Below, piece by piece: positions 6,046 through 7,361 of a stretch of DNA of 25,789 bases (positions within the stretch are counted from its first letter, which is position 1; each line of letters starts with the position of its first letter). A program made the position numbers and the translations under genes. The notes beneath the pieces are model-generated. The model worked only from the letters and a program-made list of their open reading frames with translations. It was not told the origin of the DNA and made no database searches. The stretch is from a virus: positions 1 to 25,789 of the IMG/VR virus record IMGVR_UViG_3300021142_000163, one strand, 5' to 3'.

Positions 6046-6399
6046 ATGAGAGCATCAGAGTTTGTGTTAGAAGCCAAAGGTAAAACAAATCCAGAACATA
6101 GCGGCACTATGCAACCAAGCATGGTCGTTCATGACATGGACCCTGGCTATGATTATTATCGTTTTATGATTAAGATTGCTGGTTATCCACAAAAAAATGC
6201 GCCACATGATCATGAACATTTTCGTGATCATCCTGTTATGACAGCTTATACACAAGCAGAAGAAGATATGTTAAGTGCCACTGTAAAAGGTATGGGCAAG
6301 AAAGCATCTTGGATTACAACTGAAAATGGAAAAGAACCATCTTCTAATAATAAAAAAAGCCCCGTTCCATTTAACAGCGGTGCAAGGAAGAAAAAATGA
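6046..6399 (+). CDS. Putative internal head protein paralogue 1 (MRASEF family)
   Basis: The protein has 117 residues. The start at ATG 6046 is chosen because it gives the N-terminus MRASEFVLEA, shared with the next two paralogues, and because CATAAATA ends six bases before it. The frame is open to a TTG at 6001, but those codons lie within the preceding gene. M-x-x-x-EF-(I/V)-x-E-A closely resembles the capsid-targeting peptide of T4 internal proteins (recalled as MKTYQEFIAEA), which the gp21 protease removes after the Glu. The body shares YYRFMIKIAGYP and a Tyr-Thr-x-AEE block with its paralogues, and a tail SPVPFNSGARKKK that is strongly basic. I infer that it is packaged in the head; its function after that is unknown. 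Confidence 0.55.
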   Translation: MRASEFVLEAKGKTNPEHSGTMQPSMVVHDMDPGYDYYRFMIKIAGYPQKNAPHDHEHFRDHPVMTAYTQAEEDMLSATVKGMGKKASWITTENGKEPSSNNKKSPVPFNSGARKKK

Positions 6400-6773
6400 G
6401 AGCAAGCGAGTTTATTAATGAAGCAGCAGATTATTCTGGTGCCAAGGGAATGAGTCAACAGGCTCTAACTACTATTCCTAATGCTCACATTTATCCTGAA
6501 TTAGATAACAGCAGTGGTTATCTCGCATATCGCTTTGGCGTTGCGTTAGCTGGTATGCCTGATAAAAAAATGGCAAAAGCAAGTCCTACTGGACTTAAAA
6601 TGGTAACCATTAGCTATACACCAGCAGAAGAAGAAATTCTTAATGCAACAGCAGCTTATTTTAATACACCAAAGTTACAATTAACACCAGAAGAAAGCAG
6701 CGAACCAAACTATGTTAATCATGCAAGTCCAGTTCCTCAAAATAGTGGTAAAATGAGAAAGAAGAATGGATAA
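6396..6773 (+). CDS. Putative internal head protein paralogue 2 (MRASEF family)
   Basis: The protein has 125 residues and begins MRASEFINEA, with I-N-E fitting the (I/L)-x-E cleavage rule of the T4 prohead protease. It shares with its paralogues a YRFGVALAGMP segment near residue 48, a YTPAEEEILNATAAYF block near residue 73, and a C-terminal SPVPQNSGKMRKKNG with a basic end. The start overlaps the previous stop as ATGA, indicating translational coupling. The most likely role, inferred from the N-terminus and position, is an internal or ejected head protein. Confidence 0.55.
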   Translation: MRASEFINEAADYSGAKGMSQQALTTIPNAHIYPELDNSSGYLAYRFGVALAGMPDKKMAKASPTGLKMVTISYTPAEEEILNATAAYFNTPKLQLTPEESSEPNYVNHASPVPQNSGKMRKKNG

Positions 6774-6963
6774 TATTACTCAACTCAAAGTTCTTGCTGG
6801 TGTTAAGAAGCATACCTTTACTGAAAATGAAGGTATCAATATTAGTTTGACTGGCACAGAAAAACGAGAATTGGAAAAGAAACATAATATCCAACCTGGC
6901 ACTCAGGAATGGTTTCAGTTATGGTTCAGTCTTCCTTATTTGACAGGAGAAAAACCAGTATGA
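6766..6963 (+). CDS. Small conserved protein, function unknown
   Basis: The protein has 65 residues. It starts MDNITQLKVLAGV and ends with PGTQEWFQLWFSLPYLTGEK, a segment I recall from small proteins of other marine T4-like phages. It is not a paralogue of its neighbours. It overlaps the previous gene by eight bases, and its stop overlaps the next start (ATGA at 6960-6963). The ITQLKVLAGV segment resembles short motifs elsewhere in this window (MEMRRLAGL in the 974-residue protein, ISDIKRLSGI at 13571). Confidence 0.55.
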   Translation: MDNITQLKVLAGVKKHTFTENEGINISLTGTEKRELEKKHNIQPGTQEWFQLWFSLPYLTGEKPV

Positions 6964-7361
6964 GAGCCAAAGAATTTGTCTCCGAACAAATAGCCGCTGA
7001 ACACGAGCAAGATCGCGCAGGTGAACACTTGGATTATGAACAACGCGCTATGGCTGGTGCTTATGCAATTCCTGACGCCAGCCTTAATTTCTATCAGATG
7101 TATCGCTATGGAATCATGCTGGCTCGTGCACCTGATCCACAGCCAGATGCATATAGTGACCAAACAAACCTTGGTGATAAACTAATTATTATGCCATATG
7201 ATGAAGGTAGTGAACAAACAATGTTGGCAGCAAGCAAAGCAACTGGTATGCCACCAAAAAATATTAGTCCTTATACACACAAGGATGAAAATCCTGCTGT
7301 AAATCGTGTCAGTCCAGTTGCCAAATTTAAACCAACAAAGCGCCCATCATCACGTAGTTAA
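6960..7361 (+). CDS. Putative internal head protein paralogue 3 (MRAKEF family)
   Basis: The protein has 133 residues from the ATG at 6960. That start is chosen because it yields MRAKEFVSEQ, matching the two upstream paralogues, and forms an ATGA overlap with the previous stop. It shares YRYGIMLARAP near residue 48, a Met-Pro-Tyr-Asp-Glu-Gly block and the SPVAKFKPTKRPSSRS basic tail. The targeting-like peptide is slightly divergent, with Gln instead of Ala after the Glu. Its stop overlaps the stop of the antisense HNH gene. Confidence 0.5.
   Translation: MRAKEFVSEQIAAEHEQDRAGEHLDYEQRAMAGAYAIPDASLNFYQMYRYGIMLARAPDPQPDAYSDQTNLGDKLIIMPYDEGSEQTMLAASKATGMPPKNISPYTHKDENPAVNRVSPVAKFKPTKRPSSRS

Follow-up and report, generated by a model that had tools for sequence, protein, structure and literature searches.

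A nine-residue N-terminal tag, probably a capsid-targeting propeptide, on three tandem paralogues beside the large terminase gene of an uncultured T4-superfamily phage

Three tandem ORFs in a stretch of uncultured viral DNA encode related proteins that all start MRAxEF(I/V)xE, which raises the question of what this common N-terminus does. A preliminary description of the locus likened it to the leader of the T4 internal proteins (IPs), given as MKTYQEFIAEA, and took the three products to be internal head proteins that are cleaved on maturation and perhaps injected into the host as defence countermeasures. That form of the leader is correct, as T4 IPII and IPIII start MKTYQEFIAE/A (here and below, a slash after Glu marks a cleavage site or a putative one). 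Capsid targeting sequences (CTS) are known in the T-even phages, and IP genes have been found through that leader (PMC12373910). Based on the comparisons set out below, we believe that MRAxEF(I/L/V)xE serves a large uncultured clade of the T4 superfamily as its capsid-targeting propeptide, and that the trio would be internal head proteins trimmed by the prohead protease, a reading to which we assign a probability of about 0.84.

The window, that is, the whole virus record of 25,789 bases, is evidently part of a larger phage genome. Its gene content is that of the T4 superfamily (two tail tube proteins, head closure, an interrupted large terminase (TerL), single-strand binding protein, UvsX and UvsY), and neither a capsid nor a protease gene turned up across its length. 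The nearest named relatives of its TerL are jumbo phages, for example, Phosso, Atu_ph07, and PA5oct, and its identity to the TerL proteins of uncultured giant phages is 62-66% over the N-terminal part. A search for close relatives gave 20 viral contigs, most of which have the paralogue triplet, or whatever the contig end left of it.

The paralogues and their place beside the terminase gene

The three ORFs lie on the + strand where they had been reported (Table 1) and are diverged paralogues, homologous over their whole length; within its own record paralogue 2 is 36% and 29% identical to the other two (E 5e-13 and 2e-6), and the shared Y-R-(F/Y)-x-(I/V) and SPV blocks described earlier were found in the paralogues. 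Their description as basic-tailed proteins is right for the tails, since the last 20 residues of paralogues 1, 2, and 3 carry charges of +6.0, +3.8, and +5.7, but once the tag is left off, paralogue 3 as a whole is acidic (pI 5.9). Neither PHROG nor Pfam searches gave a family match for any of the three. The AlphaFold2 model of paralogue 2 has three helices (pLDDT 84), for which Foldseek found no fold match in the PDB and a single homologue, from an uncultured phage, in the viral library. A tblastn search of 50,697 named phages revealed no relative of paralogue 2; of two family members from giant phages that were searched likewise, one had no relative there either and the other weak matches only, with 38% coverage. 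Body homology to the T4 IPs is thus absent by PHROG and Pfam for the three proteins and by PDB fold for paralogue 2, but this is not defining because the T4 IPs share only their leader.

Table 1. Positions of the paralogues, their neighbours, and related features on other contigs (positions without a prefix refer to the window)
Feature	Position	Strand	Remarks
Head closure protein	2583..3026	+	phrog_218, E 6e-44; left landmark of conserved block
Neighbour ORF	4143..4709	+	starts MKSYVQYLTDNE; position and N-terminus like PA5oct gp282
Neighbour ORF	5435..6025	+	starts MNFHDYLASVE
Paralogue 1	6046..6399	+	117 aa, MRASEFVLE/AKGK...; orthologues in sister contigs
Paralogue 1, putative capsid-targeting propeptide	6046-6072	+	codons 1-9
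Paralogue 2	6396..6773	+	125 aa, MRASEFINE/AADY...; overlaps end of paralogue 1
Paralogue 2, putative propeptide codons	6396-6422	+
Untagged ORF between paralogues 2 and 3	6766..6963	+	65 aa, MDNITQLKVLAGVKK...; has LKxLAG motif
Paralogue 3	6960..7361	+	133 aa, MRAKEFVSE/QIAA...
Paralogue 3, putative propeptide codons	6960-6986	+
HNH endonuclease ORF	7358-7864	-	directly between paralogue 3 and TerL
Large terminase gene (TerL)	7881..10626	+	two coding pieces with HNH ORF between; right landmark, downstream of tagged genes as in giant relatives
TerL N part	7881-8858		ends in short intein-like start (CLVGDTTVKIKLLSGEIKLMSIIELRNYL)
Free-standing HNH ORF	8862-9575		after TerL N part
TerL C part	9553-10626		opens with intein C-terminal region ending ...YANDILVSN/C
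Tagged micro-proteins copying the giants' Gp23 arm after Glu	L096:7403-7597; L234:1775; L240:8291; L246:3148; L231:2366		about 60-66 aa
Multi-module tagged proteins	L184:1104-2429; L187:4265-5068; L080:10886-12307; L152:584-1384		each basic module (NFADG..., GWKDW..., capsid-arm-like segment) after Glu
Twin-arginine-like segment (RRGFLGALGAGAMAA) directly behind tag	L033:2992-3609		followed by GH19-type endolysin
Twin-arginine-like segment directly behind tag	L183:4701	-
T4 gene 61.1	L301:18966-19130		annotated only as hypothetical
Predicted S77 prohead-protease substrate peptides of the clade			MRASEFVLEAKGK, MRASEFINEAADY

In the window and in seven of the eight giant regions examined, the tagged genes precede TerL; the eighth region (L291) stops short of it. 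As far as the regions reach, the gene order is tail tube, tail tube, head closure, several small genes, tagged genes, and TerL, with a different left part of the block in some giants. Between head closure and TerL, the PA5oct genes carry annotations as structural proteins based on mass spectrometry (ESI-MS/MS), among them gp281 and gp282, the latter resembling the window ORF at 4143; PA5oct differs in that it is without MRAxEF-tagged paralogues. Orthologues of the ORF at 4143..4709 often start MKxFxxYLxE, whose pattern and length are close to those of the T4 targeting peptide, although the Glu is missing in some relatives, and at the position of the ORF at 5435..6025 the giant relatives have the CTS-like starts MKTFRDYLSETE or MKTLKDYLTEAE.

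Two further features of the region were observed. An (I/L)xxLKxLAG(V/I)-like motif occurs in small ORFs immediately upstream of TerL and at the ends of neighbouring proteins (window 6766-6963; L292:10852; L294:10872; L250:18190). The fractured TerL of the window has the appearance of a split intein accompanied by its endonuclease; TerL of L012 is interrupted in the same way, and the other sister contigs that cover TerL look uninterrupted.

The dN/dS values of the three paralogues (0.17-0.23) indicate purifying selection; TerL (0.06) and head closure (0.12) have lower values, and the neighbours at 4143 and 4712 are alike (0.18 and 0.24). These values, together with synteny, bear on the suggestion that the trio, like T4 IPI-III, is injected and specifically blocks host defences. 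In T4, Type IV restriction enzymes are blocked by each of the three IPs, which have only the leader in common (PMC12373910), and the window proteins are small, basic-tailed, and tagged. Given that the family and its fixed place beside TerL are conserved across many phages, that its dN/dS is near that of its structural neighbours, that none of the trio matches a PHROG or Pfam family, and that there is no turnover as expected of subtype-specific anti-defence proteins, we consider this explanation unlikely, and the countermeasure role suggested in the preliminary description is unsupported for these three proteins. Instead, TerL synteny, the structural annotation in PA5oct, the neighbour-like dN/dS, and the predicted small three-helix fold favour a conserved internal head component.

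The putative cleavage site, the prohead protease, and the capsid arm

Conservation among the tagged proteins collapses right after Glu9. This residue is present in 335 of 361 MRAxEF starts among the matches listed, a number that was partly selected by the search pattern. Outside the retrieval pattern there are 52 MRAxEF starts. Where these have L/M at position 7, Glu9 is invariable (25/25); in 16 of the remaining 27, (I/L/V/M)xE occurs within residues 7-22, compared to 53 of 488 background windows (11%). Each of the three paralogues begins with a short peptide whose end fits a gp21-type (I/L)xE site if V is accepted at P3 in two of them, so that the I/L-x-E rule invoked earlier holds to the letter for the I-x-E of one paralogue and not for the other two putative sites, which are V-x-E. 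The T4 CTS has 10 residues, of which residues 8 and 10 govern processing and positions 4 and 7, Tyr and Phe, govern targeting (PMC9026906). The processing residues correspond to I7 and E9 of the MRAxEF tag and the targeting Phe to F6, whereas the counterpart of Tyr4 is the invariant, non-aromatic Ala3. The tag differs from the T4 leader in having nine residues rather than ten, Arg2-Ala3 in place of Lys2-Thr3-Tyr4, and V or I at P3.

The enzyme and the shell protein expected of such a system are encoded in the clade, as they are in T4. An S77 prohead protease (T4 gp21 family, PF03420) was found in 11 of 20 tagged records, and the same 11 have a full-length Gp23 match. Gp23 of the giants has an N-terminal domain ending LLAE/SSAG or YLKE/NASAG; the gp23 propeptide of T4 has 65 residues (PMC9026906, PMC5694885). 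Moreover, some tagged micro-proteins copy a stretch of the capsid protein itself. In four of them (L096, L234, L240, and L246) the Gp23 arm of the giants follows YLKE/ or LLAE/ (0/300 shuffles), and one example of a Gp23 junction behind the tag reads MRASEFVVE/NASAGATSSGSVATVA. T4 has a protein of the same kind in gp61.1, which starts MKTFKEFIKE/DM and continues with a gp23-matching stretch in register with E65/A66 (score 69, 0/2000 shuffles) and a charged tail. Like the micro-proteins of the giants it combines a targeting peptide, a copy of the mature capsid arm, and a charged tail, but it copies T4 gp23 rather than the giants' Gp23 and is a lone gene in T4. A scan of the whole T4 genome for the T4-type pattern returned IPII, IPIII, and gp61.1 only. 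T4 IPI has a displaced site, ITE19/A, and its mature form has 76 residues (PMC3012670); the cleavage site may likewise be displaced in some tagged proteins. Three designs are thus common to the T4 genome and the tagged phages, namely the IPII/III type, the displaced-site IPI, and gp61.1.

Longer tagged proteins carry Glu at further junctions. In each of its 41 occurrences the basic module NFADG... comes right after a Glu, 11 times directly behind the tag and 30 times within longer proteins, and Glu precedes GWK(D/E) segments in 15 of 20 cases and DLRKWFK segments in 7 of 10. This suggests that some tagged products may be multi-module precursors cut at several Glu sites.

Could the tag direct proteins elsewhere, to the cell envelope, the tail, or a replication site? 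Such a destination would suit the several GH19 lysozymes that bear the tag, in one of which (L033) it is followed by a twin-arginine-like segment; as internal head proteins they are odd, and they count against the head reading. However, the capsid-arm fusions at Glu, T4 included, the pattern and displaced site as in the T4 internal proteins, and the co-occurrence of the tag with the S77 protease and Gp23 all point to the head, and we regard another destination as quite improbable.

Spread and cargo of the tag

Degenerate-DNA scans of 2.9 million viral contigs for MRAxEF(I)xE and MRAxEF(V)xE found MRAxEF(I/V)xE in at least 599 stretches, of which 169 among the matches listed encode relatives of the paralogues, against 10 matches in the entire set of contigs for the order-swapped control motif MRAxFE(I)xE; the shared N-termini noticed at the outset are therefore far beyond chance. 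A DNA-pattern scan of 257 Gb of prokaryote genomes for MRAxEFITE gave 10 matches, all inside longer or spurious frames, and 75 tagged ORFs of this form are present among the viral loci examined.

With the first 12 residues removed, 323 unique tagged ORFs (among the matches listed) fell by single linkage into 38 unrelated clusters. The largest noted is the paralogue family with 194 members; the second-largest, with 75, may mix several families because of the single linkage. Since it starts 38 unrelated protein clusters, the MRAxEF peptide is a movable tag, and among 76 representatives of the non-paralogue groups the only invariant residues are M1, R2, A3, E5, F6, and E9. The other cargo includes GH19 lysozymes with LysM, GNAT acetyltransferases, a zeta-toxin-like kinase, an HD hydrolase, an ADP-ribosyltransferase of the ADPrib_exo_Tox type (a match at Pfam level only), a protein whose match to the T7 Gp2 RNA-polymerase inhibitor barely reaches significance, and one with a weak match to the T7-type protein kinase.

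This modularity contradicts plain inheritance of the N-terminus in one protein family with no targeting role. Although the window trio is homologous over its whole length, the same peptide stands on dozens of unrelated bodies (lysozymes, acetyltransferases, zeta-toxin-like kinase, HD hydrolase) and conservation ends at Glu9, and we reject that explanation as very improbable. A nucleotide signal for translation or transcription, for which the position of the motif exactly at the start codon and the many tagged genes in operons might speak, is rejected as having next to no probability, since synonymous codons vary at A3, E5, F6, I/V7, and E9, so that selection acts on the peptide and not on the DNA, and promoter-like enrichment is absent. 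Specifically, the late-promoter-like ATAAATA is not enriched at tagged genes. Where this T4 late-promoter-like sequence does precede tagged ORFs, the one at 6046 among them, its distance to the start codon is mostly 10-14 bases, so that the mRNA would have hardly any leader.

The tag is absent from Phosso, Atu_ph07, and PA5oct, and of the isolates scanned T4 alone carries such a leader, the eleven others yielding no match apart from two that look like chance. Searching the literature for the tag strings brought up nothing relevant, and within a literature that covered few subscription papers we found no report of the nine-residue form, of its spread over unrelated giant-phage cargo, or of the capsid-arm fusions. 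That the window, as a fragment, contains neither protease nor capsid gene of its own, that the nearest named TerL relatives are untagged, that Ala3 stands in place of T4 Tyr4, and that ATAAATA is not enriched are further points against the head reading.

A model for loading of the head

Paralogy, tag modularity, the conserved and sometimes displaced (I/L/V)xE, the co-occurrence of protease and Gp23, the capsid-arm fusions, and synteny are seen in the sequences themselves, and the modular tag, its (I/L/V)xE end, the gp21-type protease, the capsid-arm copies, and the T4 designs give good support from sequence to that part of the preliminary description which had the trio as internal head proteins cleaved on maturation. 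From these observations we infer a course of docking, cleavage, packaging, and injection. First, a freshly synthesised protein would dock to the prohead core through the front part of its tag (R2, A3, E5, and F6). Cleavage by the S77 prohead protease (gp21 type) behind the final Glu of (I/L/V)xE would follow, and the mature protein would stay inside the head with the DNA. The window trio may be mainly conserved core or DNA-associated components, perhaps binding DNA via the basic tail, and would probably be ejected with the genome; injection of these proteins is plausible by analogy with the T4 IPs and Alt (PMC9026906, PMC12373910). In addition, the tag would bring a wider, variable cargo into the head, likely including host-takeover enzymes.

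The same phage group puts the tag on dozens of unrelated proteins, very probably to load them into the virus head, and the ADP-ribosyltransferase, the possible RNA-polymerase inhibitor, the acetyltransferases, and the lysozymes fit host takeover better than the window trio does. A broader proposal is that the one nine-residue tag is a general head-loading system with interchangeable cargo (ADP-ribosyltransferase, Gp2-like RNA-polymerase inhibitor, kinase, acetyltransferase, lysozyme, and capsid-arm peptides), some of it in the form of multi-module precursors that the prohead protease would split into separate products at Glu junctions within the head; we hold this tentatively, at a little less than even odds.

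The proposed system resembles that of the T4 internal proteins in that a short M(K/R)...EF(I/V)xE N-terminus stands on otherwise unrelated small proteins encoded by tandem genes. The tagged proteins differ in having bodies unrelated to the T4 IPs, in their place beside TerL, in belonging to uncultured giant phages, and in a much broader cargo. T4 Alt is a head-packaged ADP-ribosyltransferase that is ejected into the host; here an ADPrib_exo_Tox-type protein carries the tag, and Alt is without homology to the window proteins. In phiKZ and SPN3US, which are also giant, many head proteins are trimmed at xxE by the prohead protease, some with identical short N-termini (PMC5694885). In contrast to the tag, however, their propeptides are mostly longer than 100 residues, the protease has another specificity, and the phages belong to another lineage.

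A recognisable loading tag would allow the probable virion-carried proteins of uncultured giant phages, those that enter the host at time zero, to be read from sequence alone, and such proteins would be a rich source for host-takeover and anti-defence factors. Furthermore, the capsid-arm fusions, T4 gp61.1 included, lead to a directly testable hypothesis on small proteins as mimics of the mature shell protein.
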